A DNA stretch of 64,000 nucleotides from Physcia stellaris. Taxonomy: Eukaryota > Ascomycota > Lecanoromycetes > Caliciales > Physciaceae. Below the pieces are notes generated by a model. The model was not told where the DNA came from. It searched no databases and saw only the letters and a list, made by a program, of their open reading frames with translations. The stretch is from positions 372,001-436,000 of the forward strand of contig JABSSW010000031.1 of NCBI GenBank assembly GCA_018902385.1, in the 5' to 3' direction. How positions within the stretch are numbered: position 1 is the stretch's first letter; each line of letters starts with the position of its first letter. Shown here in pieces: positions 2,568-37,066 of this stretch. Position numbers and translations under genes: made by a program.

Positions 2568-4408
2568 TTATCCAATATCTCTTACTCCGACATACCATAC
2601 CGAGGACGCGACTAATGTAGCTACCATGAAGCAGATGGTAGTATCTCTATTGTGCGGAAGGCCTCCTGTTCGCTCCAGGATCCCAAACCAACACGCACTT
2701 GTAGCCAGCAGTATTTCAGCCACAATCTTGACCGAAGATGGCAAGTCGTAATAAGCATATACGACTGACACGCAGCCGCACAGGATCGTTAGTACAATGC
2801 AGCAGCTCGTTTGGATCCAGGGATAAATGCTGCGGACATTGACCTTGGTTGCTGGTTCGCCTTGAAGCACTACCGAATCGCCCGAATACTGGTACTTCAG
2901 CACATCAGTGGCAAGATGATAGTCCATAATGATGCCAGTAGCCGGACGTCGAAATGCGCATTCAGCAACAAGAATGGCGGAGGACTCATCGATGTCATTG
3001 CTGTGATCCCCTAATATGGTGGCAATTAGACCCAGAACACTATTGGCGTACGTGGGAGAGTTCAGGATGCCCTCGACGGAAACTTCCAGGTTTCGACAAC
3101 CGACCACCAGATAGTCGTACAAAGATTGTTTCCAGACCCCAACCATGCGACCGCCGAGCCTTTGGCGAATGCTCATCAACGCCCTAATAGAAAGTAATAA
3201 CCATACGAGCGTGGAGAGCCCAAGCATACCGTGTCCGACTACCCCGAAGGAGGGATTCGGTCGACTCGAAGCGCTCCGTAAAGCCAACCTGCGCCGATGA
3301 TCGTCAACTCCACGCAGGCAACAGTTGTAGTTCCGACAACATGCCACCATGTAATTCCAGAACACTCTATTTCCCCAGCAAGCGCAGGACTTCCCGGCCC
3401 AGTTTCATAGTGGAATCGACTCTTGTCGATGGAAACAAGCGATAGGACAAGATCGTCTCCACTGATCGTTGCGGTTCCAAGAGCTTGCAGCGCGGTCCTA
3501 ATAGTAAGTAGCCAAACCGCGAGACCTCGTCCAGACGCAGCGCCCATGAGACCAATGGCGCTAGCAACAGTGATATGGACTAAAACATACATCCTCGTCA
3601 TAGACTTCATGACAGAGCTTCGATTTGCCCCATACTGCCCAGTGATCATGGACAATGATTGAAATGGCGAGTCTTCTGAATGGACTTTGGTGAAGACGTT
3701 TGCAAATGAGGCTTGAGTGCCGCTGTTCTCCACTTCCTTGTATATCTCCGTCATGAAAGCGCAACGCGTAGCTTGGAAGTCGCATCGGCTGACTAGGCTT
3801 TGAACGACTTCAGAGATCGGTCTTTTGGGGCACTGCTCCAGCAATGCCAAGCCATACTCAATGTCCGTATCGGCGAGCGGAAAGACGCTGTCTCCTGTCT
3901 GCTTTGTTCTCGATGGACAGAGGCTCTCGTGGTTTGGGCTTTTGATCCAATGCGCAACACTCTCAACGGTTGAGTCACTCCTCAGCTGTCTTCCCACAAC
4001 AAGGACCTCCCAAGAATTGAAGGCGAAGGTCTCGATCTGCATAGAGACCTGGGTTGCGAGTTTTTGCAGCTCTTTCGGTGAGCGCCAGGAGATGACAACT
4101 ACATCCGTCCGTAGTTTACCATTTGACCAACCAGACTGCAGGAACCAGTTTCCTCGTGACAAAGCGCCCGATATCAGCGCCGACCGTTGGACGACGCGCA
4201 AATTGCTGAAGATGGAGGATGGAGCCGTCGTTACAACGCCTCGAGCACTTGAGCGAATGGCGATTATGATAGCACCCCAGAATGCGACGATTTGTGAAGA
4301 CCATGCCGCGGTGGCTGCAACCGCAATCCCTTGCGCTGCCGCTGATCGGATTAGTATCTGTATGACAACTCCAATCTTTAGAATCTTGTGGCGAAAAGCA
4401 ACAGACAT
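2568..4408 (-). CDS. Multi-pass membrane protein, unknown function
   Basis: Two exons: 4408-3243 and 3183-2568. The intron 3242-3184 has a GTAGTC donor and TATTAG acceptor and removes an in-frame TAG. Together they encode 593 residues. Hydrophobic stretches lie near residues 10-55, about 272-310, about 350-380, and three more in the last 130 residues, so it is a polytopic membrane protein. The middle (about 90-260) is soluble and holds several Cys and Trp. I recognise no family; it resembles the many lineage-specific fungal membrane proteins with N- and C-terminal TM groups around a cytosolic middle. ATG at 4408 is the first in frame. A further 5' exon cannot be excluded, because an open frame continues in another register up to about 4680. 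Confidence 0.65.
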
Positions 4409-7010
4409 TCTTTACGAGGTATACTGATTTCTGTAGGCTTCGGTGAGCCTTCGAACAGTACTCGATACGTTGTCTTTACGGATCCATCGCTTGAGCGAAG
4501 ACGTGCAAGGCTTAATAAGTACGAAACCAGCGGGCAAGGAGAGGCTGACCTGCAGGGCATCCGAGCCAGACGCATCGAAAACAGCCTGCCAAGGTTCGCT
4601 AAAGCAGCCACCTGCACCTCAGCCACTGAACATGGGCGCATCACACCTTCAGCCAGATTGCCATCGTACCAGTTGCGGAGCAAGAATGCCTCCTCGAATC
4701 ACCTTACTCGTGCTTACCAAGATGCAACAGGACACCATAACACCCAGCACTGATCCATACGGCCTCTGTGAGAAAGCCTTTCAAATGCTAATGTCTTACT
4801 TTCTTTTAGCCTCCTAATCATTGATTCCAAGGTCGGCTAGACATGTCTCAGTGTGATTTATATCCATGATCAATTAGCAGGTGATATCCGAACCTAGCAT
4901 ATTCCTGATAATCCGGATATGCTGCTGATGGTCGGAGCATGATACCAGGTTCAATCTCGAAAACACAGTCTGTGAGCGATATTAATGATGCAGTACCATC
5001 GCCTAACCAGTCTTGATCCTGATCTGCCCATAGATGTCCGTCCGCTTGTCCTCCTGCTCTCCTGACACATTATGCTCAGTGAGTGATTTGGAAACACTGA
5101 ACCTGGGACGTCCAAGAACTGATTGAGATCACAAGAAGCCAATCTCGGTCTATCTTGCGATAAAGTCCTGTCGTGGCCCCGAGTGCATGGCAGTTGCTAT
5201 ATAGAAGCGTTCATTGCTTCCTGTAGACTATCCTGGCATCCAACTCAACGGTTCTCTCGCAGTGGCGATCAGGCTAGGATAGCAGTAAGCGGTAAGTGGT
5301 GCCAAAGTTCGACAAAGCGCAAGATCCACGGCCCTCAGGATCTCTCCCGATATCCCATGCCCTGGCAAGCAAATGGCAGTCTCTTTTTACGGACGCTTTC
5401 CGGGCTAGCTTGGGGTAGACATCTAGCGCGCGCGCTGGGTTAACTGCACAACCTCCCTATTATTTGAGACATATGCTGCAGGCCGGATTTACCGGATACA
5501 AAGGTCTTGGCAAGTGCAAATAGCGATCTCAAGTCCGGATAGGCGCTCCCTTCAATTATAATCTCTCACGCTACTACATACTACTGCCATCAATACGCTT
5601 ATAGACAGGAAACGTGTGGACAGAGAGATTGTCACGAAGCGGACTGCTGTCTGTGCGTACTACACTCGAGTCCCAGGGAGCCAAGGCCAGAAGTGGCGCC
5701 CGAAGCCCGCCCCCATGAGACCCTTGCAGTTGCCCTTACAGCATCAACCGGGGGCTTCAGACACTACTTCTAAGACTTGATCGGAACGACCTCAGACGAG
5801 GGCCACGAATGATCTGAGTCTTTCTCTCCCTCGTCTGCGTCACATCGAGAGTGAAGACACCAACAAAACCCGGAAACTTTATGAGACATTCACGGGTCTG
5901 CCATAGGCCCATAGCCCCTAAGCCCATTGTGCTGCCCGGGCACTAAGGAGACTATTTTAGGCAGTGACATCGCCTTCGGAGATTTTGTGTGGGGGTCGAA
6001 GCGGGACGGCACCGCCCATCGTTGGTATCTGAATCTAGTAGTCAGCTTGCGACATTGACCACACTGCTCACCATGCTACGTCTGACTTCTGAGACAGCTG
6101 AGACCCGTGCGCAATGTCTTTGTGGGGTGATTACAGATCGTAATGCTGTCGACCACGATGCAATACCCAAAACTTGGGGTGATAGAACTCACCTTTAGGC
6201 GAGTTCGCGATGGCTTCCGGTCTAAGTACGTCCTTCGCATTTGGCCCGTCTGATAGTATCGTATCAGCCGTGAATTAATAAGGCCGACCAAGAGGTCAAA
6301 TATCTCCTGTGATCCTTGAGGATCTGCTACTCTTTCTCCCGCATGAGATACACCTGAAAGGTTTTTCGCTCTGTTGGATGCCTGACTATGCACAATATAG
6401 TCTCTAGGAGATGGAATCTGTCTCAGACGGCTCGCTGTCGTTGTCAGTCTACAATTACCAACAAAAGCAAAAGTGCCTGCTAGTAGCAACCCGTCTTCCC
6501 AGCCTCAGAGGGTCTCGGAAGAGTCCATACGGTGAGAGAATGTTTGTTCTGGAATGTGCCATCTGAGGCACACTCCATTCATGGCTGATTCCTGACTTCA
6601 ACGACCTATCATGATGAGCTGCAAAGCGGTTCAGAACCTTTCAGATCGAACGTTTACGTTGTACTCCCGTTTCTCGAGCGAGACATAGTCTTCCATTTTC
6701 CTCAGTGAGGCTTTTCCTCTGTTGTTTCAGTGACCACACCTGTTTCTTCAGCGCCCACGACGAAACGCCGTCAAGATCTACGAACTTCACCACCTCTTCG
6801 ATTGGCGTCAATCCTCAGCCATAGTGTCGTAACGCAGATCACCAAGAATAGTTTTCGCGAAGCCAACCTATCCGGTCAAGAGTCTCATTCTGAATGGAGT
6901 CTCGAGCGGCTCGGAGTGGTTATCAAAGGAATGAGTTTGAGGTTGATTCTCTTTCATCTGGTGACATATCAATGAAGATGGCAGTAAAAATAGAATCCTG
7001 TTGGCTCTCT
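4409..7010. other. Gene-poor interval
   Basis: 2.6 kb with no frame I can support on either strand. Open frames here are under 140 codons, mostly lack ATG and show no family motif. The DNA is of normal composition, not AT-rich, and I see no terminal repeats. Confidence 0.6.
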
Positions 7011-7014
7011 CGAA

Positions 7015-7022
7015 TATATAAG
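7015..7022 (+). promoter_or_regulatory. TATA box of the GH45 gene
   Basis: TATATAAG about 145 bp before the GH45 start codon, followed by a pyrimidine-rich stretch (7040-7120) of the kind that precedes strongly expressed fungal genes. This is inference from position and sequence. Confidence 0.5.
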
Positions 7023-7165
7023 GATGGCATCGCAATACTCTCTTATCAGTCATCATCGCCACCATCTTTCTCGAGTCTTCCACCTGTTTATCCTGACGAT
7101 TTTACCACTATCTTGTTCTCAATTATACTTCCTAAGGAATCAGTACTCAACCAGCCTTCAACAAC

Positions 7166-8236
7166 ATGCCTTTCTCCACCGCAAAACTTGCAATCATCGT
7201 TTCGGCATTTGCCACCCTTGGTGCATCGCAGTCCGGTTCCGGCAAAACTACACGCTACTGGGTAAGCAAACTCCCCTTTCTATCCTTCTACCCTATCCAC
7301 AAGCACAATCCCAATCACCTATTACTCCCTCCGTCTCCCCTCCCCTCTGACCATCCACCTTACTAACGCCCCCCATCCACAGGACTGCTGCAAACCCTCC
7401 TGCGCCTGGGAAGGAAAAGGCCAAGCAGCAGGCGTCGTCGGCGTCTGTGACATCAACGACAACCCACTCGCAGATCCCAACGCGCAATCCGGGTGCCAAG
7501 GCGGCAACGCCTTCGCCTGCTCCTCGCAGTCCCCCTGGGCCGTCAACGAGAACCTCGCCTATGGATTCGCCTCAGTGTCGAGCTCCTCGCCGGCATGCTG
7601 CTCGTGCTTTGAGTTGACGTTCAAGGATACGGCGCTCGCGGGGAAGAAGATGGTGGTGCAGGCGACGAATACGGGGGATGATGTTGCTGAGGCGCAGTTT
7701 GATATCGCGGTATGTGTCTCCTCCCCAATGTCCCGCACTCGCATCCCCGAGCACTTTCTCTCTCTCCTTCTCTCGCCCTCTCTCTCTCTCTGTCTCTCCT
7801 CATCAGTTTGGATGGGCAGCAGAAAATTTTGAGAGGGGACCGGGATTAGTACCCAACAACACAGATACTAATATCACGGTACACCCCAGATGCCAGGCGG
7901 CGGCTTCGGCCTCTTCGACGCTTGCACGCGGGAATGGAACGCTACCCCTGACCTCTGGGGCCAAACCTACGGCGGCATCGCGACGAACACTTGCGCTTCC
8001 TTCCCGCAGAAACTGCAGGCTGGATGCGGCTTTCGCTGGGATTGGTTCATGGGCGCTGATAACCCTACGTAAGTCCCTCCTCCCCCCTTGGCCTTCAGTT
8101 TGCGTGGGGTTGGAGGTGGAGATATTGGGGCTGACATGAGGCTTTCAGGGTGGATTACAAGGTCGTTGCTTGCCCGGCGGAGATTGTGCAGAAGTCTGGA
8201 TGCGGCGTTACGGGGGGAGCGAAGTTCCGGTATTGA
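7166..8236 (+). CDS. GH45 endo-beta-1,4-glucanase, secreted, no CBM
   Basis: Cleaves internal beta-1,4 bonds of cellulose outside the cell. Four exons: 7166-7261, 7383-7709, 7890-8068 and 8149-8236, encoding 229 residues. A signal peptide (about residues 1-20) is followed directly by TRYWDCCKPSCAW. This is the GH45 N-terminal signature with the catalytic Asp; its codon opens exon 2. The second acidic residue is in GGGFGLFDAC. Other family markers are SPWAVNENLAYGFA, CCSCFELTF and GCGFRWDWFMGADNPT. There is no linker or carbohydrate-binding module, so it is a catalytic-domain-only form of usual length. The third intron (7710-7889) is long and carries a TC-rich tract. An enzyme of this kind fits plant or litter degradation. 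Call is secure. Confidence 0.95.
7758..7800 (+). repeat. TC-rich microsatellite in GH45 intron
   Basis: Imperfect (TC)n tract made of CTCTC and TCTCTG units, wholly inside intron 2 (the second of three introns) of the GH45 gene. It may vary in length between strains. Confidence 0.7.
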
Positions 8237-9096
8237 GCCTTGTTCAGGTCGATGAAGAACGGGAGATGGGAGAGGATGACGGGTTGTTAGGTACTCGATA
8301 GATGGGCAGGAAGATAAGAATGGCACTTTGGGAGGCGTTTTTGACTTACTGACCGCAGCCTGAAGATTGTAAGATTACAAGCATCTCGTATGTTTAGCTA
8401 GTCGGGGAGTTTGAATTGGTGTTTTGGTCTCGATGCAGGTGCTTGAGATGTTGGAAGAATGCCTTGACGTATATATTAAGGTACATGTAATCATGCACGA
8501 ATTGAAGTCTATCACGTGATTTTCGGAATAAGGATCAGGCCATTTATTCCTCTAATAAGGGCATGGCCAACTATACTTGTCGACCTGCCCGTGGTGTTGC
8601 AAACCTCATCTCTCGTCTTCCATGGGTCTCGCAGACAGCCAATTGCGTGGTGAAGCTCGCCGCTTCCTTGACGCTGATCTCTTGGCAAAAAGCTGGATCT
8701 TGATACGTCACCGTCTTCTCCGCTCACCTCAACTTCCTTGCTTAGCTACTTGCCAAGCTATGCAACAGCTGAAAATGGCAGGTAAACAACCTTCAAGTGC
8801 TGCCCATTGTGCTCTGCCTGCAGTACCCCACGGTCACGTTGAAGCCCATTATCTGGTTATGCTATCATCTCCGCTTTTCACCCTATCAGACCTATGTCGG
8901 CGAAGGATTGACAAGGTACAAAGGGCGACCCCACATACTCAAGGAATAATCACCCTTCATCCCCTTCACCCTGGCGTGATAGGAACCATAATGGTACAAT
9001 TGGAGGTAGACAAGACCAATCTGGGTCTTCATCTTCGGTATAATCCTTCTTCTGTTGCACTGCTCTCTTTTATTGGTCCCCAGTACGCAGCCCAGG
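8237..9096. other. Intergenic, GH45 to M28 peptidase
   Basis: 860 bp holding the GH45 3' region and the upstream region of the M28 gene. An open plus-strand frame (8577-9158) starts at ATG only by chance; it has no domain and runs into the M28 start in another frame. No clear TATA box. Confidence 0.5.
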
Positions 9097-11779
9097 ATGC
9101 ACCGATACATCCTCTCCTCTCTGTTCTTGGCCGCTTGGGTAAGTGGTTGTATTCGTGACCATGTCTTGCACCGCCCAAGATCGGTTGCAAAACGCCAAAC
9201 TACACCACGAGTACCACTGACCCCAGATGAATCTGTCCTCGTCAATTCAATCGACAACAGTACCCTCCGTGACTGGAATTACTACTACACCCACGGCGCC
9301 CACTTGGCCGGCACGAACCAAAGTATGGCCCAGTGGACAGCCGATCGGTGGTCGGAGAACGGTTTCCAGGCGAGGTTAGATGAATATGTACCGTATCTGA
9401 ACTATCCAGTCAGCCACTCGCTGTCTTTGACCTACCCGAACGGCAGCATCTTTACAGCCGGCTTGGAAGAGGCGGTCTTGATCGAAGACGAGACAACCAG
9501 CTACCCTAATAGGATTCCCACTTTCAACGGTTACTCTTTCACGGGAAATGCGACTGCCGAGTATGTCTATGTCGGACGCGGCCAGGTCGTCGACTTCGAA
9601 GCTCTACTTGCTTTAGGAGTACCCTTAAAGGGTAAAATCGCGCTCGCCAAGTACGGCGGTCCATTTCGTGGACTCAAAGTCAAGAATGCAGCTCTGTACG
9701 GCATGATAGGATGCGTTCTCTTCACAGACCCGGGCGACGACGGGAACGTCACCGTAGAGAATGGCTACGCCCCCTATCCGGAAGGACCGGCACGCAATCC
9801 AACAAGCGTCCAGCGAGGCTCAGTGCAATTTCTTTCGACGTACCCAGGTGACCCGACGACTCCAGGTTATCCCTCCAAAAGAGATAGTCCGAGAGCGGAC
9901 AAATCATCCGTGGTTCCTAGTATTCCTTCCCTTCCAATTTCCTATGCTGAGGCCATTCCCTTGCTCCGCGCTTTAGATGGCTTCGGAACCCCAGGAAGTC
10001 AAGTCAATCGCACCGAATGGGTTGGCAAATTAAATGTAACCTACTCAACAGGTCCCGCTCCAGGGGCAGTGCTTTCAATGTCAAATATCATGAGAGACGA
10101 ATTCACTCCAATATGGGATGCGGTAGGTATCATCAATGGAACGAACCAGGATGAGGTTCTCGTTATTGGCAATCATCGAGATGCTTGGATTGTAGGTGGA
10201 GCAGCGGATCCGAACTCTGGTACTGCGATTATAGTGGAGTTGAGCAAAGCCTTCGGAAAGCTGCTTGCTACAGGTTGGAAGCCTAGGAGGACCATCATTG
10301 TAAGAACCGCCATGGAGCATCTTCCGAGCCTGTCGGATACAGAGCGATTGCTAATTAGATTGATAGCTGTGCTCCTGGGATGGTGAAGAGTACGGTCTCG
10401 TTGGAAGTACGGAGTGGGTAGAAGAATATGTAAATTGGCTCACCGAGTCCGCTGTAGCATACCTCAATATCGATATCGGCATCTCTGGAACATCGCCTGA
10501 CCTCTCTGCTACCCCTGAACTCTCAACCATAGCAACAGCAACCATGAAGAAAATCATGTGGCCCACAATGCCGAACGAGACGCTGTACGACGCTTGGAAC
10601 GCAGAGAGCGAGGGCGAGATCGGCGTCTTGGGAGCCGGAAGCGATTACACCAGCTTTCTGCACAAGGGTATAAGTAGCTTGGATGTGGGCACCGACCCGG
10701 GCGTTGACGATCCAGTCTATCATTATCACAGGTATGTTTCCCCGTCTCTAGTAAAGGTACTGTGCAACCTACTCGACTTGACATTTGCCCGACTTTGGCT
10801 GTGTTTCAACCATGAATGATCACTCACGTCGAAACCGTGTTTCGTTCTGAGGGACTTTAACGTACACATTCCAACTGTATAAGCAATTGTAGTATATCCA
10901 CCCGACTACACCGACCTTCCTTACTTCAACCCTGACAAAATACTGTCAGATACTCCCTGAGCCACGACTGACATGGCAGCAGCAACTACGACTCCTACCA
11001 TTGGATGAGCAACTACGGCGACCCAGGCTACCACTACCACACAGCAATGGGCCAATACCTTACTCTGCTTGCCTACCATCTCGCCACGGACGAAATCCTA
11101 CCCTACGACTTCCCAGTCTACACAGCCGCCCTGCGCTCATACTACGGTGACCTTCTCAAAACAATCAACAGCACCGGACAAGCTCTCGATACATCGGAAC
11201 TAGCTACCGCAATCACGCAGTTCGAGAGCAGCGCCAATGAAGCGATGGCCCTTAGGGAACTAGCAGTCTCTACTGGTGATGCGGCGCTGATGAGAGTGGT
11301 GAATCATAGTAGGTCCTCTCTCAATCTTTTGCCCATTTCTTCCTTACTTCATCCACCCATCGGACTTAATGAACACAGTCAAGGGAGAAAAAGCAATAAG
11401 TAGCAAGATTCACTGCCCCAGCTCAAACCAACTGACCCCTTCCTCTCCTCTCCTTTCCCATCCATACAACACAACCCCTCAACAGCACCCACCAAACAAC
11501 CAAACAGGAAAGCTAACCCCCAGCCCAGAATCTCGCGATTTCCAACGAGGCTTCACATCCGTCGGCGGGCTCCCGGAGCGAGAGTTCTACAAACACGTCG
11601 TCAACGCGCCGGGGATCGATACCGGGTACGCACCCACCACCTTCCCCGGCATCACTGAGGCAGTTGTGGCGGGGAATCTTGAGAGAGCGAGGGAATGGGT
11701 TGGGAGGACGAGTGAGGGGATTAGGAGGGCGGCTGGGATATTAGGGACCGGGGAAGGTGAAGGGACGAGAGGGGGGTGA
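9097..11779 (+). CDS. Secreted M28 metallopeptidase, glutamate carboxypeptidase II / transferrin-receptor type
   Basis: Zinc exopeptidase acting outside the cell on peptides. Exons 9097-10299, 10367-10731, 10983-11308 and 11508-11779 join in frame to 721 residues, the normal length for this subfamily. Order: signal peptide (1-18), a Lys-Arg processing site near residue 30 (SVAKRQ), a protease-associated domain insert (about 150-290), then the M28 core. All expected metal and catalytic positions are visible: VIGNHRDAW (His), AADPNSGTA (bridging Asp), WDGEEYGL (catalytic Glu pair), LNIDIGISG (Asp) and PVYHYHSNYDSYHW (His, after intron 2). The C-terminus has the helical dimerisation-like domain (EREFYKHVVNAPG). 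Many N-glycosylation sequons. ATG 9097 is the first ATG of the frame. The second intron (251 bp) is long; an additional tiny exon there is possible but not needed. Confidence 0.93.
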
Positions 11780-12402: not shown

Positions 12403-12407
12403 TTTAT
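12403..12407. repeat. Target-site duplication, left copy
   Basis: TTTAT directly before the 5' LTR, matching 14718-14722 directly after the 3' LTR. Five bases is the usual duplication for Copia and Gypsy integrases. Confidence 0.85.
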
Positions 12408-12552
12408 TGTAGAACTAGGTGGCCAATTAGAGGCCGCCAAGAGCTTAGTCATTAGTGCACGTTGCAATGACATTAAAGACTAGAAATCATGTAAATTAGC
12501 ACTTCATAAAACATCATGCAATCAATGATTTACGATTTCATGCAATTTTACA
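12408..12552 (+). repeat. 5' LTR (145 bp)
   Basis: TG...CA ends. Aligned without gaps to 14573-14717; 18 of 145 positions differ and all 18 are transitions. It keeps several GG/CC pairs (for example 12419-12424) that the other LTR has lost. It is preceded by TTTAT. Confidence 0.9.
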
Positions 12553-14572
12553 ATTATGAGTTCGAATCACGTTTATTGTTGCATTCAATACGTGATTTAT
12601 TAAATTATCAATATTTTCAACATTCGATTGTTTCGACAAATTAACATGAAAAATCAAAACATCGCGAAAACATTTCTGTGTTTACATTTTTTTACAACGA
12701 AAAAAATGCTTTTTATTTATTCGCTCGTTCAGCACGATGACGAATACGAAACGAAAACTCAAATTGAATTTTTTCAAAAATTGAAACGCGTGATTTTCAA
12801 TCGTAAAAATTAAAATCATCGAATATTCGATTTGAAATTTCATCGATTCATTCAAAAATATTAAATCAACGAACAAATTTGAATTTTTAGAATTCGATTT
12901 TGACGCACAACAAAGTGCGAATTTCATCGAAAAACATGCTCGATACAAAATAACGTCATCGAAATACAAAACGAAATTTCAAAATTGAAAAAAACAAAAA
13001 CAATTCATGACGAAAATAATCGATCACATTTATGATACAACAACGATTACAAATTTCAATTTTATTCAATTCGTTGAAATTCATTCATGAAACGTTTTAC
13101 GCGTTTTAAAAGCACGTTTTGCATCAATCGATTCAACTAAAAATTTGAAATTGAAACAACAATACAATCGCATGATCAAAAATTCATTCAATCGTCAAAA
13201 CATCGATGTTTGACTAAACGAATATTTGAAAATGTTGATTTTCGTTAAACAAACGAAAATTGTTGAAATCATCGATAACAAACGAACGTATCGTGATTTT
13301 TTACACGCAATCGACAAAATCGCATTTATTTTCGTTGAAATACAATTATTTCAATTAAACATCGTAACGAATTACGAAACACGATTTCTCGTTTTTATCG
13401 AAATTTTTCGTCAACACATACGCATGAAAAAAATTCGAAAAAAAAAAACGATATTCAATTCGACATTTGTTGTTGACGAAAAACGTCAAAAAAAAACGAA
13501 AACAAAAACGATAACAAGAATACAAAAATCGTAAAATTTTTCGTCGTCATTCACGTCAACGTCGATGTCATAAAGTCAAATTATTTTTTTCGATTTTCAT
13601 GAATTTTGAATCATGATTTCGACATTCACGTGATCAACAAAACGATAAAACAACGTTTTCAAAAAAAACGAAATTGTACAAACGAATCGTCGATGATTTC
13701 AAACATGAAATCATTTTTTATTTTGACATATAATCGAATACGTTTCAACGTTAACATTTTCACAAACAAAAACACGATAAAATTATTGAACGTGTGTTAC
13801 GTATTTGATTTCATGATCAATATCGTTGCAAACAACATTTTTGAAAATAAAAACGTGCATTTCAATGCAGAACATCGTCATTTATATCGAAAAGAAATTC
13901 AACAAATCTTTTTTGTTCTCGTGTCGAAAATAGATGCACATTACGTTTTTGAAAATAATAAATTTAAATTTGAAAAGATGAACATTTTCGCAATCATCGT
14001 GCGAAAAAAAACTATTGTCGTTGAAAAAATGAAATTTATTAACAAAAATAAAATGTTTACATCAACAACAACATCAAAAAAATCGATATTTTGAACAAAA
14101 ATAATTTCACGATCAATAATCTCATCAAAATTTTTACGTTTTTCGATATTTTCATCAAAATTTATATCAAAAACGTTGAAAAACGTTTCGTTTATTTTTT
14201 TATTTATTTCATTTCAAAAATTTGCTCAAATGCAATCAAAATTCATCAAACAATTCTGTTTGATTGTGAATGATTTACATCGCATGTTTATTGAAAAATC
14301 GAAATCATTAAATTTGCAACAACATCAAAATCATCGTTTTTTTTCGCACATTTTTGACATTCGTCAACGAGATTTCATACAAATTCGCATCATTTTTATT
14401 TCTCATCGAAGAAATTCGATCAATCAAAACGCATGAATTACAAAAATTGCGAAAACGTCGAAAACGAAATTTTTGCATTGATGCATGATTCGAACAAATG
14501 CTCGATTCGCATATTCATAAATGCAACATCAAAAATAGAACGAAATATCAAATATTTTCTTTTAAAGAGGTG
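12553..14572 (+). pseudogene. Remnant gag-pol interior of the Copia-like element
   Basis: Short open stretches remain on the plus strand at about 13226-13534 (Lys/Arg-rich end, gag-like) and 13609-14094 (protease/GAG-pre-integrase-like, with HFNAEHRHLYR and AHYVFENN). Reverse transcriptase and RNase H are absent. Open frames survive here mainly because CpC and CpT loss turns few codons into stops on this strand; they are not evidence of function. Confidence 0.6.
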
Positions 14573-14717
14573 TGTAAAACTAAATGATCAATTAGAGATC
14601 GTCAAGAACTTAATCATTAGTGCACGTTGCAATGACATTAGAGATTAGAAATCATGTAAATTAGCACTCCATAGAACATCATGCAATCAATGATTTACGA
14701 CTCCATGCAGTCTTACA
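14573..14717 (+). repeat. 3' LTR (145 bp)
   Basis: Same length as the 5' LTR and gap-free against it. Preceded by the purine tract AAAGAGGTG and followed by TTTAT. It keeps CTCC and CAGTC positions near its end that are TTTC and CAATT in the 5' LTR, so both copies have mutated independently. Confidence 0.9.
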
Positions 14718-14722
14718 TTTAT

Positions 14723-20337: not shown

Positions 20338-21273
20338 TCACGTCTTATCACACCCCAGCTTCCGCACCAAGCCACTCCCCAACCTCCTCCACTTCGACTC
20401 GCCCTCATTGCCGAATTCCTTAGTCGCCTGGTGCCCATACGGGCTCTCCTCCCGCATAGTCGTGCTCGAGCAATCCGACGCCGCCGTTCGACTCTCCATG
20501 ACGCGGTACTCGTCCCTTAATGCGGGATGGATCCTGGATTGCGATTTTTTCGCAAAGGGGGGTTTGCCGAATGAGGCTAGGCCTAGCGAGAGGGTGGATT
20601 TGAATGCGAAGGAGTACGTGTCGTCGTCCTCGGTCGCGGTTCTGGTGGTACAGGGTTCTCCTTGCAGTTCGGCCATTGGAGGGAGCTCGTACGTGGGGTA
20701 AGGGGCTTTGATTGAATCCGGAGAGTAGGGTGCTGCGCGAGTGTGGTACGTGTGGCTGTAAGGCTTGATCGGATCGGGGGAGTAAGGTGTTGTCCGGGTT
20801 TTGTAATAGGGCTCGATTGGATGAGGAGAGTGAGGTGCTGCCCGAGTTTTGTAGGTGTGGCTGTAAGGCTTGATTGGACTAGGGGAGTATGGTGCTGTCC
20901 GAGTGCTGTAGGTGTGCCTATAGGGTTCAATTGGACTAGGCGAGTATGGTGTTGCCTGCGCGTTGTAATCGTAGCTATAGGGTTTGAGCCGGTATGCTGC
21001 TGCCCGGGTGTTGTGGATGTGCGAATGGGTCTTGAGCGGTTCAAGAGAAAACGACGCTGCCCGAGTGTTGTAGGAGTGTGTATGGGGCTTGAGCGAATCG
21101 AGAGAGACTGGTGCTGCCCGAGAGTTGTAGGTGTGTGTATAGAGTTTGATCGGATCTGGAGAGAATAGCTCTGCCCGAGTGTTGTAAGCGTGAGTATGGG
21201 GCTTGATAGGATTGGGAGACGATGGCACTGCCCGAGTCTTTTGGAGCCGGGCTCGTCCTTTGGGTTGCGCCAT
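20338..21273 (-). CDS. Orphan protein of ten tandem 19-residue repeats
   Basis: Intronless, 311 residues from ATG 21273; the frame upstream of it has no ATG. After a 12-residue start (MAQPKGRARLQK) come ten tandem units of about 19 residues (two are 16), consensus TRAAPYSPDPIKPYSHTYN, covering about residues 13-196. The tail (197-311) is different: an acidic patch (ATEDDDTYSF), Ser-rich sequence and a basic end (KWRRLGSGLVRKLG). No signal peptide or TM segment. The repeats are rich in Pro, Tyr, Ser and Thr, with Tyr-Ser-Pro units that could be phosphorylated or form a fibrous stretch. The 57-bp unit also stands out at DNA level. I know no family of this kind; function unknown. The clean reading frame over all units argues it is real. 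Confidence 0.6.
   Translation of the reverse strand: MAQPKGRARLQKTRAVPSSPNPIKPHTHAYNTRAELFSPDPIKLYTHTYNSRAAPVSLDSLKPHTHSYNTRAASFSLEPLKTHSHIHNTRAAAYRLKPYSYDYNAQATPYSPSPIEPYRHTYSTRTAPYSPSPIKPYSHTYKTRAAPHSPHPIEPYYKTRTTPYSPDPIKPYSHTYHTRAAPYSPDSIKAPYPTYELPPMAELQGEPCTTRTATEDDDTYSFAFKSTLSLGLASFGKPPFAKKSQSRIHPALRDEYRVMESRTAASDCSSTTMREESPYGHQATKEFGNEGESKWRRLGSGLVRKLGCDKT
20686..21237 (-). repeat. Coding minisatellite, 57-bp unit x10
   Basis: Tandem array inside the repeat protein; eight units of 57 bp and two of 48 bp (one lacks part of the centre, one lacks SHT). Units 6-9 are most alike, suggesting recent expansion in the middle of the array. Confidence 0.8.
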
Positions 21274-24200
21274 GGTTATCGTATAGTGTAATGTGATGAA
21301 TTTGGATTCGACGATGTGGGTAAATAGTGAAGGGGACACTGACCGGAGGATAAATGGGAGACCGTCTGGCTTTTTATCTGCGCCAAAAGAGTCACCCACC
21401 ACTTCAGTTTCTATGGAGGTTGATCACCTGTCAGAATCGACGATCAACAACGGCCACCCGTAGGGAAGGAAGTTAACTGTGGAGGGTCAACTATGCTTTT
21501 GCTTTATTGGTGGTCCGTGGAACCTGTCAGTTTCTCGGTACCAAATTCACGGGGAAACAAGCCTTCGAGGCTCATCTTGCATTAGACTCCATGGGATACG
21601 AGTACCTGCATGTGCAAGCCGTAGGCGCACCTATCATTTGCTCGCTTTTGACAGTCCGTGCTTGAATACCCAACGCTCGTGCCTCGCCAAGCATTGAATA
21701 TGGATAGAGTTCCATAACGTTCCAGCTTGTCGGGACGCCGAGAGATACGAGTGTTGCCAACGATAGTCTGCCTCAGAGACCGACAACGACAATAGGATCG
21801 TAACAAAGATCTCCGCCGTTCTTTGAAGTTTGGACCCCTTCGCGTCGAACAGCGTTCTCTCATACTCAACCCATGCTGTTCGACAGAAAAGAACTGGTTG
21901 ACCTGCTGCATGCTACCGTCGGCCCGAAGCAGCTGTGTCTGTGTAACGCACGCGTCTAAAAAAGGACGCTTAGCACGCTGTGTGTCTTGCTGTCCTTGCA
22001 GGCTGCAGCTACTACCGACATCATCTGGGGTTGAATGTCCTCCCCGCACCCAGATAGAGGGCATGGATCGCAAACTCAAGGCGCCATGGGCCTGCCGTAT
22101 ACCCATTTACATCGTCTTCAGCATGCGAGAGAATCCTGTGCTAATGTGGCAACATTCCTAATTCGGACGACTGCAAAATTTTGGGCATGATGATAGACAT
22201 TTCCATGCAAGAGTTCGGTAACCTTCTCGCGGCTAGCATACCACCGGAATTCAGCATGAAGATAGAGATATCTTGATCGTTCGGCCCGAGCAAACCCCCC
22301 AACAACTGTCTGCTTGTTCTGTGACAATCGAAGGGAATTGGAAACTGAAGGACCGAGATAGAGGCTCTGGACTACCCCCTTCAAAGATACCCTACCGCGG
22401 GGTGTTCAGAATAATCGCCGTTCACGAGGCTGAGCCTATCTTATCTTTCGTTAGAACTCGTGGCGCAGATGGTAAAAAGCTTTCTGCCGGCATCACTTCG
22501 ATGCATGACAGGAACGCTGGATGTTTGACTCGCGATTGGCCGGAGTAATGCACCCCACAGACAACCTTGCTAACACCTCTGGCTAGCGCCATTCAGTTTT
22601 CTGGCATCGTCGCTCAACTAGCTCCATGCTGCCCTTCAAGGTCGACGATACCAGATGCGAGCCTTCCATGCGGCCAGCAAAGTCATACATACGCCAGCTG
22701 GCACCGAATTCATCTTTTGTGGTTAGCCCCGTGTCAGTGTGGACAGTATCAGTTAACAAAGAGTAATTGAAGCTGTTTGATCCATTGATGAGCGCTTCAG
22801 CTCAGTGCCCATCAAAGGCTTTGCGTTTGCACGCGTGGTGCACTGGAGAAAGGGATGCTAGTATCCAGAAAGTACCCGACCTTGGCTCTCAAGAAGATCG
22901 GCATTGGTGTGAATTTTGTGGTCGAACACGAGATTTAGAATCACATGTCGTTGCCAGGTCTTGAGGCTTTACAATGACTAAGAAGGCTTCCACCACTCTC
23001 TAGAGAACCATAGCCACTACCCGTACACATCTCCTAATAGAGTTGCATGTCCTCTGCTGAACAGGGAATCAACGAGGTGTGGTAAACAGGAGACTTGCGG
23101 TGTGATGCTTCTTATCGATACACGAACGTGGCTGTCCTCCTAAGTGAGACACTCGCCTGGTCCTTGCACGGAATGTGTACATCGGGCCGACCTCTGACAG
23201 ATTCCATGGAGATCCAAGCTCTTAAATTCCAGTCGAATTTTAGGACGGTTATATATGTTCTGTCACATACTCCACAGGAAGACCTGAGGTATCCCAGTAC
23301 TAGGCTAGATGGCATTACTACTCATGAATTGCTCGTTGAGTTTCGGAAACCCTTTTCGGATACCTATGAACTCTAGAGAGATAGGGTGTGTCCCTCAAGC
23401 GTGAAGTAGTTTAGCGACTCTGCAAGGTTCGTAGAGCGCTGGCGTAGACAGCGAACGAAACCCATCTCAGTTCATCCACCTTAGCCATGACTCCAGACAT
23501 GCGATGTTGCAAAAGTTCGATGATATGCAGCACGATGTGTGAATATCCGCCTGGACCATTGCATATCTAGCTGCCTCTTTCCCCTTCGCTTGCCGTTGGC
23601 CGTGATGATTACATATAGGAAAGAAAAGCTACTAGTCAGGCTGAACAAATGAGGAGACCATTGGGAGGTGCTGGTAGTCAGAATTGGTGGTCTTTTATCA
23701 CAATCGCCAATGTGCTGGCCGGTGTAGCTGAATGGTTGACTCTGATGTCCTTATCCGACCTAGCCGGCCATGACGATGATCATCCCCAAGCAGCCGAGGG
23801 TGTTCTCGGGCCATTCGAGAAATATTTCGAATCCAGTACATGATATTTCGTCGATAGATCGAAGTGAGAAGGATTTGCATATCGGGTGTTTTGCTGCGTG
23901 GATCAAAAGTGGCTCAGTGGCCACTTCATAGAGTTCAAATCCGGGCCGCGCGGCCCGGGCACCGTGTAATCTTATCAGATGTCAAGTACGGATAATAGAT
24001 TGTCCGACCTCCCCGCTTTAGCCCGAATTCGAGCTCGCGCGTTCACGAGAGATCCTACCTCGCCTCGCTCGCCTGCTCCGTACCTACACGTGTGTCTTAC
24101 AAGTCGCAATGGAGGGTGAGGTGTGTTATTATACCACCTTATATGGCCGTGAGGTTCCTTTGAACATTTGCTCTCACGGAGTCACGAACCATCTCGACGG

Positions 24201-31431: not shown

Positions 31432-34185
31432 TTACAAATTGGGATCAACCCCATAGATCCAAGCAGCAACAACCCTCCCCCCAAAATTATCCCCCGTCCC
31501 AAACGGCTCGGTGCTCAGATCCGGCACGCTGGTAGTGATCTTCTGACCGCCCGGGTCCCCATACGCCTGCGCATAGATCCACGCCGTCGCGCCCCCATAC
31601 ACACTCACACTGCGCGCCACATTGACTTCCGTGCCGCTGAAATTCGCGCCTCCGGGGCCCATGCACCATAACTCGCCCTGGAACTGGGGCTCGGTGTAGA
31701 AGCATGCCGCCGGCGGCATCGCGACTGCGTCTGGGATCGAGATGGAGAAGATGCCGGCCCCGCCCGCGCTCTTAGCGTCGCCCAAGTGGCTGACTGCGTA
31801 GCTGAAGCCAGCGTCGGATGAGGTTTGAGATGTTGTGAATGTGGTGGCTTTGGGTATGGGGTCCATGCCGGGCTTGTAGTCGTAGTGAGTTAGTGTGAGA
31901 GAGGCGCCTGGCGGCAGGGAAGCGGCGTTGGCGCCACCGAGACTGTAGCCGAATTGGCCGCTGGGCTGGGTGTAGGTGCCGTTTGGAAGGCAGAATTTGG
32001 CACCGGTGCCGGAGATGCAGACGCTGTTTGACTCACCGAATGCGACGGCGAAAGGCTTGGCTGGTGGAGGCGTGATGCTTGCACCCGCCTCGCCGTTTGT
32101 CGATTCGTTTGCTGGGGAGATATATGGTTTGTTTTGGGTCGCGAAATCTGTGGGTGAAAGCGTTGGGACGTTCGACACTGGGGCGGTCAGATTGCAAGCG
32201 ATGGATACTGGTAAGCCCGTGATCGTAATTTTGTAGAGTGGAAATGTTTGCGCGTTGCTGGCTGCGTCAAGTAGTTTGCAGTCACCGGCTGGGAAGATTC
32301 GATCGAATATAGCTGCTGCTGTTTCGTTGATGACTGGTAGCATAAAGTCCCTGCTCAGGCCAAATTTCGGATGATTGCAGTAAAGAGGGTCATCGCCAAC
32401 CTGGCCGCGATTGGTTTGATGTTTTTTGCCATTGTGGCAATCATATGTAGCTATTGCCCCTGCTGTGCCATTGACTTGAAAAGCCGCTGCCATGTCTGGA
32501 ATAGACATGGGATAGCCGTGATTGAAATTGATAAGAAATGCTATGGCGTCGAAATAATTAAAGCCGAGGACAGCTGAAAGGGTCCCGGGTCCATACACGG
32601 CTTGACAGTTCGGATTCTGTTTTTGGCACTCTTCGTTTCCTCTGTGTCTGATCAGCTCAATCAAACCAGAAACACCATTCAAGGTACTCACGTATGGTCT
32701 GCGTCACCAAACATCATCCACTGCAGAATTTCGGTAGTATTGTCAACGCGGGGCCGATTTTTGGGTTCCTCGAACAAGCCGGGCAGGATCGCAAAGAGTG
32801 CCTCCACAAGTCCACCAACAAGCCATCCTATGGGACCTGCAACGCCAGCAGTGGCTAAGATGCCTAGGGCAAGGCCCTACCAGTTAATCAGCTACAGTGC
32901 CAAACAGGGGACGACTTCTCCGTACCGCAGCACCGAATCCAGCTCCAACCCAATTCCCATTTACAAAGTCAAGGATAACAAAGGCAGCCCCTAATGCTAC
33001 ACCGGCTGCGCCTGCGGCAGATGCCGCCTCCTTTTTGATGACGTTGATTATACTCGTAACTTTGTTGACCCGCGTCATGGCAAGCTCGCTACTGCCAGCT
33101 TCTTCTGCTGGCGTACTAGACGAAGAGCATCGCAGATGGAGACTACCTCGACGTAGGCGGCGGCATGCATCGCCCTGTAATCTAGTAGGATCCCTCATCG
33201 GCGCTCCATCCCATGTACTGAGTGCAGGAGCCTTCTGCTCCTCCCAGGGCTCAAGCAAACGTCGTCTCTTTGTGCCAGCTTTCGTGCCAGTGTCAGCGTC
33301 AGCGTCAGCCTCAGTATCAAAGAAAGCTTCTAACATGTCCCAGAAAGTTTCATCGGAGCCTTGCGGTTGGTTCGAGAATTCGAGTTTTAGCTTGTTGTGC
33401 TCCTGGATTGAGTATCGGGTGACTTGGTTTTTATCTTTGTTTCCCCACTCCCCGACTTTCATGGAAGCAACCTTGAGGGTTTGTGGAGAGGTATCACGGC
33501 CTATATAATCAGCTTTCGCCTGATACCAAGCCTCAAACTCGGCATTGAGAGGTTGATCGGGTAAGATCTTCTTCTGAAGCTCTCGTACGAATGACATGCA
33601 ACCCGCCTTGGGCATGGAGTACTGCCCTCCTTTGAAAGGCCCCGCGGGGTCGGAAACGATGTCAGTGATGATGCCGGCTCCACCTTTCGCTTCATCAATG
33701 AAATCGGTATTAGCAAGCTCAGTTTGGCCTATCAATATACGCCTTCGTGTTTCGTCCGGTTGCCATGAAAAGGCGGGGGCGCCAGAATCGGTTGCGCCGG
33801 GGTTTTTGTAATCAAAGGCGGCTGCTTGCATTATCCAACGTGATTCAGCTGCAACTTCATCCGTGCCATATTCTTGAATCTGCAGCCGTACGGCGCCGTT
33901 GTTTACGTCTGGTTCAATGTGGATCTGAGCATGTTGGGGTAGTAGAGGCTCTGGGCCGTATTCGTAAATCTGCTTAGACTCGACCCAAAATTCCTCGCCC
34001 TCGCCAAACTTTGGGACAAAGGTCAGTATTAGCTGATGGGACGTCAAGTACGAAGAGCGTATTAGTGGTATGCTTACTGCCCAGTCGCATATAATCCACA
34101 CATTCCGTGTTGCCGTTACTCTGGCGATCAGTAAACAATAGAGGTAGAGTACCACTGCCGATCGATAGCATTGATACTTTGCCAT
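31432..34185 (-). CDS. Secreted protein with the C-terminal module of fungal heat-labile-enterotoxin-A-like proteins
   Basis: Three exons: 34185-32926, 32876-32692 and 32647-31432; introns GTACGG..GGTAG and GTGAGT..ATCAG; 886 residues, frame consistent. Order: signal peptide (1-25), an unrecognised domain (about 30-330) and a Lys/Arg-Glu hinge. Next is an amphipathic/hydrophobic segment around residues 370-470 (AAGVALGAAFVILDFVNGNW, then LATAGVAGPIGWLVGG). The C-terminal region has GNEECQKQNPNC, FNHGYPMSIPDMA, AGDCKLLDAASNAQ and a Cys-poor beta-rich end. From memory this C-terminal part matches proteins annotated as enterotoxin A-chain-like in ascomycetes. I see no ADP-ribosyltransferase motif in the N-terminal part, so enzymatic toxicity is not supported here. 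A 45-nt in-frame intron (34077-34033) is possible. Neighbours on the same strand are two HExxH proteins. Confidence 0.7.
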
Positions 34186-35352: not shown

Positions 35353-37066
35353 TCATCTAAGGTTGACGTCCTTCAAACAGTCCCTCTTCCTCGCGCGCGC
35401 CTTCTCATATATTGTCGTATCCGGCTCACACCTGCCACTCAGAGTCCGACAACTGATGGCCTTTTCGCGCGCTGCGGCTTCCGCCGTGGTGAGATAGCTC
35501 CAGCACGCGCCGTCGGTGTAGAACGTGGTGAGCAGTATGCCGTACTGGAAAGGAAGCTCATAGAGACCGTACTCATCCGTTCCAGGCTGGTGTCGGAAAG
35601 TGGTTGCGACCGGGTAGCCCAGCTTGGGACCAAGTTTCCTGAAGCGCCAATAGCGGAAGAACATGTAGCCATAGCGATCGAACAGCAGGTCGTTCATCAC
35701 GTTCTCTTGCGCGTAAGCCTCGGCTTCGAATTTCAGCGTCTTGTATTTGAATCCAGCTTGGCAGTACTGATACAGGTACTTGGCTCCGAAGGCGGGGATG
35801 AACCAGCCTAGGCTGCGGTATTGCTGACAATGTCGGATCTCGTGGATGATGGTTGAAGTGGTTATTTGGAAGTGTGCATCCGCAGGGCCTGGCTTGGGGT
35901 TAAGGCTGTAGTCGCCGACAATAAATATGTCTCGTCCGAAGGTTATGGCAGCATAATCGCCGATAAAACCGAGGATCTTACGGCTATTGAAGTGGAGCTT
36001 GAGGCCAGCTGTAAGGGGGAAGTAACCGTATAACTGGAAGAGAAAGTACATATGGGATTCGGTGACCGAGAGCCCTGGTCCCGGATTCTGTGCTTTCAAA
36101 TCGGCGTGCACTGCGATATACCCTGGGAGAAGTACTGCTGTGCTTGTTGTACACGATAGGTCTCCGCCAGCTTTTACAACAGCTTTCGGGATCGCTGTGA
36201 CGATATCACCCACAGTGTTGACGATCTTCTTAATGGATATTCCCTTGCAGCAAGACCATCTACGTTGGATCGGAGCCCCTTCGCTCACTTCGCTCGTGGC
36301 GTTTTGGCTTGTGGCATTCTCTATTGGCAGATCTGACTGGCCGAGGAGATGCATGAGAGCCTCCGTGAGGACGGGAGATGATTCCTCAACGAGAGGAACG
36401 ACTTCTTCGGAGGACACCTCGAGTTGTTCCAATATCCGAGGCATGGCGTAGTCTATGCCTTGGGCAGTTGCATTACCAGCACTGGTCCGCTCCGATCCAT
36501 TAACTCTCGGACCAGGAGAGAAGAACACCGGAATGCTCGTCAGCGGTAGGCCTCCTGCAGTAGATCTTGGCATCAGCATTATTCTTTGTATGGGTAGGTT
36601 GAGGGTGGTAAGACATGTTCCTAGTGCAAGAGACCCAAAACAGAAAGATGCTGCTCAGGAAATACCTACCGAATATTTCTTCATCCTGGATTTGATAGGT
36701 AGTCAAATTGGAAGAATTCTTGAAACTAGTCACGATCGGTGCATCCGGGTCGGTGTAGTTCTTCTTATCCTGGAACCTAGTCGAGTTGTCAAACATCGGA
36801 CGGATTGGAAAGGCGGAGAGCTGCAAAGTATCGGAATTTTCTGGCACACCGGCTTCAATCGCGGTTGGTTGCGCCATGCTTCCAGCAGAAGCTCCAATGG
36901 CTGTGTTACTGGCAAGGGGCACGGCAGACACTTCAAGGGAATCAACTGCAACAGTACCTGTCGCGACATCTTCTTGGGGTACGGCAAGTCCGAGTGTGGA
37001 CGGAGCAAGGGCTACAAGGAAGGAAAACACTTGGAAAATACGACTGGAATAGCTTAGATAGGGCAT
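35353..37066 (-). CDS. Secreted HExxH protein (HEIRH), putative zinc metallopeptidase-like
   Basis: Two exons: 37066-36670 and 36620-35353 (49-nt intron GTAGGT..CACTAG); 554 residues. ATG 37066 begins a signal peptide (about 1-24, SFLVALAPSTLGLA); the frame upstream has no ATG. Residues about 30-290 are low-complexity and Ser/Glu/Pro-rich with many NxT/S sites, as in a propeptide or glycosylated stalk. The C-terminal domain holds TIIHEIRHCQQYRSLGWF, a HExxH zinc motif. About 30 residues on comes FEAEAYAQENV, which supplies a plausible third ligand Glu, as in DUF4157-like predicted peptidases. Last residues ARARKRDCLKD are basic. I infer a zinc-binding secreted protein; peptidase activity is unproven. 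It lies between the enterotoxin-like gene and another HExxH gene, all on one strand. Confidence 0.65.

Follow-up and report, generated by a model that had tools for sequence, protein, structure and literature searches.

Transposon DNA of the lichen-forming fungus Physcia stellaris has been mutated from C to T at cytosines followed by a pyrimidine (CpY), on both strands, after integration and at a speed far above background, and this was found in two transposon families and in AT-rich DNA of many regions. With a probability of roughly three in four, we interpret the pattern as active RIP-like mutagenesis with CpY specificity, faster at CpC than at CpT, for which a class I methyltransferase is the likely agent. 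The window, the whole stretch of 64,000 nucleotides that was analysed, corresponds to positions 372001-436000 of contig C31 of the P. stellaris genome (43.97 Mb, 147 contigs). It carries a 2,310-bp LTR element with TG...CA ends to its LTRs, located at 12403-14722 of the window when the flanking duplication is included (Table 1).

Table 1. Features of the mutated LTR element (positions in the window)
Feature	Position	Strand	Remarks
Target-site duplication TTTAT, left copy	12403-12407		Read from sequence; recurs at 14718-14722
5' LTR, 145 bp, part-mutated	12408-12552	+	CC/GG retained in outer part; 7 private CpY mutations
Internal region, saturated	12553-14572	+	CC/GG absent from 12553-14568; remaining C mostly before A/G
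3' LTR, 145 bp, part-mutated	14573-14717	+	11 private CpY mutations
Target-site duplication TTTAT, right copy	14718-14722		Read from sequence

An earlier note on this DNA had stated that the 2,016 bases at 12553-14568 contain no CC or GG and only a few dozen CT/AG, while CpG and CpA/TpG stay common, and a dinucleotide count bore this out: CC 0, GG 0, CT 17 and AG 15 (32 CT/AG), with 124 CG (observed/expected 3.48), 173 CA (1.36) and 90 TG (1.21). TA occurred 98 times (0.37), and the GC content was 26.9%. In the window's 30 other 2-kb bins not touching the element, CC and GG were present at 0.78-1.26 of expectation. The LTRs are less mutated than the inside of the element, with CC/GG persisting at its outer edge.

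The two LTRs align without gaps and differ at 18 sites, 10 of them CpT and 8 CpC, with no difference at CpA or CpG and no transversion; the claim that all 18 are CpC/CpT transitions thus survived realignment, and the single transversion seen in the comparison (12553/14718) lies just beyond the LTR ends. Each LTR holds the mutated state alone at some of these sites (Table 1). Across seven LTR pairs, 83 of 85 transitions were at CpY, accompanied by 5 transversions and 3 gap columns; the remaining 2 were at CpA, both in the L032 pair, which has 6 transitions in all. One pair, on C13, was hit unequally (CpC 6/41 in one LTR and 29/41 in the other), its LTRs being treated as one element from their strand and 5.5-kb spacing. 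Reverse transcription makes both LTRs of an element alike at birth. Both the private mutations in each LTR of the window element and the inequality within the C13 pair therefore show that mutation follows integration in these elements.

The direction of change was read by comparison with relatives of the element, of which the genome holds at least 85 matching stretches (40 of 220 candidates scored). Among the matches listed there were five near-full-length copies, the window element included, and three further relatives, on C8, C7 and C42, that match its first part. These three are GC-rich (0.47-0.49, judged from their 5'-proximal sequence), and 2-3 kb downstream each is followed by a stop-free copia-type reverse-transcriptase match, in open frames of 1257-1624 aa (G000:C8:902437, C7:889944 and C42:398640). 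The open frames indicate that unmutated copies of the family exist, and since GC-rich relatives carry this downstream reverse transcriptase, the window element is probably a non-autonomous deletion derivative. In the GC-rich relatives L059-L061 (GC 0.47-0.49), CC and GG were somewhat low yet present, at 0.63-0.79 and 0.83-0.87 of expectation. The possibility raised in the earlier note, that the element had lacked CC/GG from the start, is contradicted by these values.

Relative to L059, the window element showed C-to-T change at 66/83 CpC, 122/146 CpT, 5/139 CpA and 6/134 CpG sites, with 20 transversions and reverse transitions at 7/567 sites. Ten of the 12 queries of this family (L024 and the window's 3' LTR left out) gave pooled values of 746/858 CpC, 1199/1488 CpT, 84/1442 CpA and 70/1353 CpG. 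The GC-rich relatives differ among themselves without CpY bias (L059 vs L060: CpC 5/91, CpT 4/153, CpA 1/149, CpG 5/137), and the genome contains at least three unmutated GC-rich copies that share 89-93% identity with one another. L024 (G000:C7:700001-710000), which belongs to the same family, had clearly raised CpA and CpG loss (0.22-0.24 and 0.11-0.15) beside its CpY loss (CpC 0.85-0.90, CpT 0.88); it is perhaps an older copy, or perhaps a second, weaker activity has acted on it.

A second family gave the same direction. Its reference, the L019 element (3491-9721), has a GC content of 0.495 and normal CC and GG (0.89 and 0.87 of expectation), and its LTRs differ by two CpC changes and one transversion. 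Compared with L019, 19 LTRs of its family or kin formed a graded series from untouched to saturated, with totals of CpC 420/732, CpT 161/457, CpA 15/547 and CpG 15/336. Four LTRs were untouched (CpC 0/36 each, CpT 0/22 or 1/22); L043 (CpC 6/41, CpT 2/25), L041 (19/41, 2/26) and L045 (33/41, 6/26) were part-mutated, and L042 lay at the saturated end (41/41, 21/26). In each of the 19, only 0-4 CpA and 0-1 CpG sites were changed. The untouched four and some others show 9-15 transversions, with as many as 29 gap columns, and so are kin of L019 and not recent copies. An internal copy at L015 was changed at CpC 166/234, CpT 123/347, CpA 41/324 and CpG 31/270, with A-to-G at 56/674 and T-to-C at 27/552 as a gauge of plain divergence. 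The contrast was weak in old or only lightly hit copies, as in internal blocks of L041 (CpC 0.28-0.32, CpT 0.11-0.17, CpA 0.10-0.11, CpG 0.06-0.16) and an L015 block of 64.5% (CpC 16/27, CpT 18/56, CpA 14/45). CpA-to-TpA, which the earlier note had named as the change that would speak against its claim, was not the main change in the tested copies of either family.

For an element that was native in this composition, or for a fault of the assembly, nothing speaks beyond the AT-richness itself. Both families, in which a graded series connects GC-rich relatives with saturated copies, speak against either, as do the presence of copies on many contigs and the hybrid Nanopore/Illumina assembly described in excerpts of the genome paper (PMC7513301), and we consider the chance of such an origin to be practically nil.

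The sequence context was examined in a part-mutated set made up of 14 of the 19 family 2 LTRs and three L015 blocks; it leaves out the 64.5% block, the untouched L047, L048, L050 and L051, and the LTR of L015. Across the four 5' bases CpC was mutated at 0.66-0.79, and across the +2 bases at 0.64-0.76. In CCA the second C was mutated at only 11/181 sites. Together these values indicate that the process reads the 3' base as pyrimidine or purine. The CpC rate was 1.4 to 7.8 times the CpT rate in twelve of the 19 LTRs. C-to-T and G-to-A changes were intermixed in the eight part-mutated LTRs inspected, with no one-strand runs evident by eye. Both strands of transposon copies show C-to-T, as in RIP; the proposed CpY specificity on both strands is thus upheld, with CpC and CpT lost, CpA and CpG spared and the strands interleaved.

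These observations bear on APOBEC/AID-like deamination of cDNA or single-stranded DNA, with which a clustered C-to-T bias would agree. The context, however, is set by the 3' base and not by the 5' base (NCC is flat across its four 5' bases and the second C of CCA is spared), both strands are mutated in interleaved fashion, and mutations private to single LTRs of one element did not arise during reverse transcription. Such an origin is very improbable. A search with the APOBEC_N profile gave 0 matches in the genome, but likewise 0 in its 14 controls. Because both CpC and CpT are dipyrimidines, ultraviolet damage in a sun-exposed lichen could be suspected. Ultraviolet light acts mainly at TpC, however, and TCA (16/164) and TCG (23/217) were not raised in blocks of at least 70% identity; GC-normal DNA, moreover, is untouched, leaving this explanation a negligible probability. 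On this evidence native composition, assembly artefact, ultraviolet damage and APOBEC-like editing were rejected or disfavoured.

The sharpest contrast was seen between the L042 LTR and the young 3' LTR of family 2, where 38/38 CpC and 22/27 CpT sites were changed (60/65 CpY), as against 0/31 CpA, 0/18 CpG and 0/104 A/T sites (0/153 others). The comparison with the 5' LTR adds one change, a T>A that belongs to the 5' LTR itself. The CpT rate exceeded the upper bound for other sites by a factor of more than 80 (computed with 0/148), or of about 50 if the T>A is counted. If CpC/CpT in transposons were methylated and then slowly deaminated by passive decay, through MIP-like marking with no active mutator, the same direction and 3'-base dependence would result, and this genome does encode class I and DIM-2-like methyltransferases. 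Passive decay of 5mC, however, gives about a tenfold rate increase, and change at 60/65 CpY vs 0/153 other sites is too selective for it and argues for active mutation. Where MIP leaves methylation with little mutation, the mutation here is saturated. We regard passive decay as unlikely.

CpA and CpG also change slowly in old copies, as indicated by their variation at low identity in unpolarised pairs. At 85-90% identity (121 of 287 pairs), 4303/5569 CpT, 429/629 CpC, 2429/16339 CpA and 1410/15130 CpG sites were variable, and at 60-75% identity (62 pairs) 921/3016 CpA and 842/3186 CpG. The 287 pairs were taken from 454 (at least 200 bp), leaving out pairs of more than 99.9% identity; as L005 lies inside L021, their pairs with other loci enter this count twice.

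In-frame stop codons provided an independent test. CpA RIP yields TAA and TAG and converts TGA to TAA, while GpG-to-GpA gives TGA from TGG. In the 287 reverse-transcriptase matches listed (from 150 of 527 RVT_1 and 150 of 165 RVT_2 candidates scored), there were 651 TGA, 134 TAA and 6 TAG stops; since ApG-to-ApA also lowers TAG, the telling ratio is that of TGA to TAA. Among the matches listed, 14 of 287 were stop-free, and these, together with the three or more unmutated GC-rich copies, suggest that the process is leaky or the copies recent.

Dinucleotide counts outside the window, a check proposed at the outset, likewise showed CpY depleted and CpA kept. In 20 sampled regions, 127 of 400 windows of 500 bp were AT-rich (GC below 0.35), a proportion that is no unbiased genome share since many of the regions were chosen for holding relatives of the element. 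Pooled, the 127 had CC at 0.05, GG 0.03, CT 0.18 and AG 0.17 of expectation, a depletion that excludes chance, and CA at 1.30, CG 3.48 and TA 0.44. No CC or GG at all was present in 110 of them, and the six with most CC/GG had 3, 3, 5, 10, 20 and 24. In 259 windows of GC 0.42 or more, CC was 0.96 and CT 1.07 of expectation. From the class means of 49.7 and 25.9% and the GC content of 43.32% given in excerpts of the genome paper (PMC7513301), such DNA would make up about a quarter of the genome. Eight 5S rRNA matches yielded no polarised case; GC-normal DNA surrounds seven of them and one, L036, borders AT-rich DNA. One of the eight, L040 (G000:C14:433396-433503, in GC-normal DNA), is diverged, scoring 57 bits vs 77-89 in the other seven.

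Published RIP indices miss this DNA. Of 61 AT-rich 1-kb windows (GC below 0.33), none was flagged by the criteria given in excerpts of PMC7882544, and none passed the RIPCAL thresholds as applied here. Mean values were 0.45 for the product index (TpA/ApT), 1.37 for the substrate index ((CpA+TpG)/(ApC+GpT)) and -0.92 for the composite, the opposite of a RIP signature of CpA preference with TpA gain. A CpY index, (CC+GG+CT+AG)/(TC+GA+TT+AA), separated the AT-rich windows (mean 0.039, maximum 0.215) from 133 GC-normal windows (mean 0.889, minimum 0.538) on average.

As had also been proposed, the genome was searched for RID/DIM-2-type methyltransferases. A PF00145 search gave four matches, read as three DNA methyltransferase genes, two of them class I (L009 and L011). 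The third, L010, for which Pfam gave PF00145 and DUF7893, we take to be DIM-2-like by its domain order, so that class I (RID/Masc1) genes and a putative DIM-2-type gene are both present as in RIP. L011 (C5:499307) closely resembles class I proteins from many lichens, and the methyltransferase on contig C5 is a 99% match to the P. stellaris protein G7Y79_00005g016670. Both L009 (C6:791557) and P0001, the full-length product of L011, keep the PPCQ and GNAVPP motifs. In a class I tree of 69 rows (68 of 237 proteins found, plus L009; a quick tree that carried a long-branch warning), L009 fell in a clade of 14 rows with support 100 and a stem of 1.04, set apart from P0001 and Heterodermia P0008. 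The clade includes Heterodermia P0128, Heterodermia being its only named member besides Physcia, and the placement suggests two class I paralogues in both genera. After PPCQ, L009 has 'PAQ...DFEDKQ' in place of 'AHT..G.DD', and the target-recognition region of its clade is six to eight residues shorter than in P0001 or the Aspergillus row. It is a guess from these sequences that the two alterations set the CpY specificity.

The earlier note had left the choice between a RIP-like and a deaminase process. Given that the context is set by the 3' base, that both strands are mutated and that the mutations arise after integration, a RIP-type methyltransferase pathway fits better than an APOBEC-like one, and the RIP-like half of that proposal is retained. 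Under active RIP-like mutagenesis, transposon DNA would be hit after integration, perhaps triggered by homology between repeats and, as in RIP, presumably in the sexual phase. C would be converted to T on both strands when its 3' neighbour is a pyrimidine, at CpC faster than at CpT, with CpA and CpG spared or nearly so, until saturated DNA keeps nearly every remaining C before a purine. The likely agent is a class I (RID/Masc1-type) cytosine methyltransferase whose target preference has changed, with L009 and L011 as the candidate genes. More tentatively, and in our view somewhat doubtfully, one lichen-fungus lineage may have evolved a dedicated CpY-specific mutator in an L009-type class I methyltransferase, with CpC/CpT RIP replacing CpA RIP; the two class I paralogues would then perhaps share out CpC and CpT. 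If so, the specificity of RIP would be an evolvable, swappable trait.

We regard the process in P. stellaris as a new RIP-like variant, which works like RIP and lacks its defining preference for CpA. It shares with the RIP of Pezizomycotina (RID/DIM-2) active C-to-T change on both strands, a 3'-base context, class I and DIM-2-type genes, and confinement to AT-rich transposon DNA, but spares CpA and hits CpC and CpT. A shared CpA preference was concluded by Badet and Croll from 1,239 fungi in 2025, and the 130 RIP-proficient species in four classes given in excerpts of that paper do not include Lecanoromycetes (PMC12543289). CpT mutations also occur in Botrytis, Sclerotinia, Magnaporthe and Anisogramma, where the authors tied them to class I RID; in the excerpts of these reports, however, CpT accompanies CpA and CpC is no named signature (PMC4352252, PMC10998396), those named being CpA, CpT and CpG (PMC4352252), whereas in P. 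stellaris CpC leads and CpA is spared. The CpG/TpCpG RIP-like mutation of Basidiomycota, and MIP, are likewise repeat-linked C-to-T changes outside CpA (excerpts of PMC4014442), and class IIA genes have been tied to CpG (excerpts of PMC4352252), but P. stellaris spares CpG; in a SNP table for Rhizoctonia solani CpC outnumbers every other CpN class, although the authors put the emphasis on CpG (excerpts of PMC4014442). In Zymoseptoria, C-to-T mutation in transposons depends on the methyltransferase DIM-2 and is CpA-specific, with hardly any CpT methylation (excerpts of PMC8016269), whereas here the agent is a putative one and the targets differ.

Cladonia rangiformis, a Lecanoromycete, similarly combines homologues of RID and DIM-2 with sharply bounded AT-rich transposon compartments, but its 'ripped' DNA is defined by GC below 35%, with a GC peak of about 16%, and 'CpA', 'CpC' and 'dinucleotide' do not occur in the main text (PMC12542154). 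Mutated P. stellaris DNA pools at GC 26%, as expected if CpA and CpG survive. CpC has been considered before, in that the RIPCAL paper defines a CpC index and records CpC depletion in Stagonospora beside dominant CpA (excerpts of PMC2621366), and CpC-to-TpT double changes accompany CpA in Monilinia (excerpts of PMC8959702); ascomycete rDNA pseudogenes show mainly CpA, with CpT raised in N. crassa (excerpts of PMC5555474). The term 'repeat-induced' does not occur in the excerpts of the P. stellaris genome paper (PMC7513301), and a CpC-led, CpA-sparing RIP was not found in the open-licence literature searched.

The pattern violates the rule that equates RIP with CpA. The RIP indices in common use can rate a genome's most mutated DNA as untouched, and since they are blind to CpY mutation, RIP may be under-counted, perhaps most in lichens. 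Two natural class I paralogues in one genome also provide material for studying what determines the target base in RIP, the chemistry of which is to our knowledge still unsettled.

Also noted in the window were several open reading frames on the minus strand. The one at 20338-21402 is a diverged tandem-repeat array with units about 57 bases apart and peptide repeats like PYSPDPIKPYSHTYNTRA. Long frames of 419, 408 and 702 aa at 31432-32691, 35353-36579 and 52917-55025 gave no Pfam match at E 0.001. The frame at 43374-44288 matches glycosyl hydrolase family 71 only in that family's last third, followed by a Ser/Thr-rich tail, and the rest of that gene may lie in another exon.
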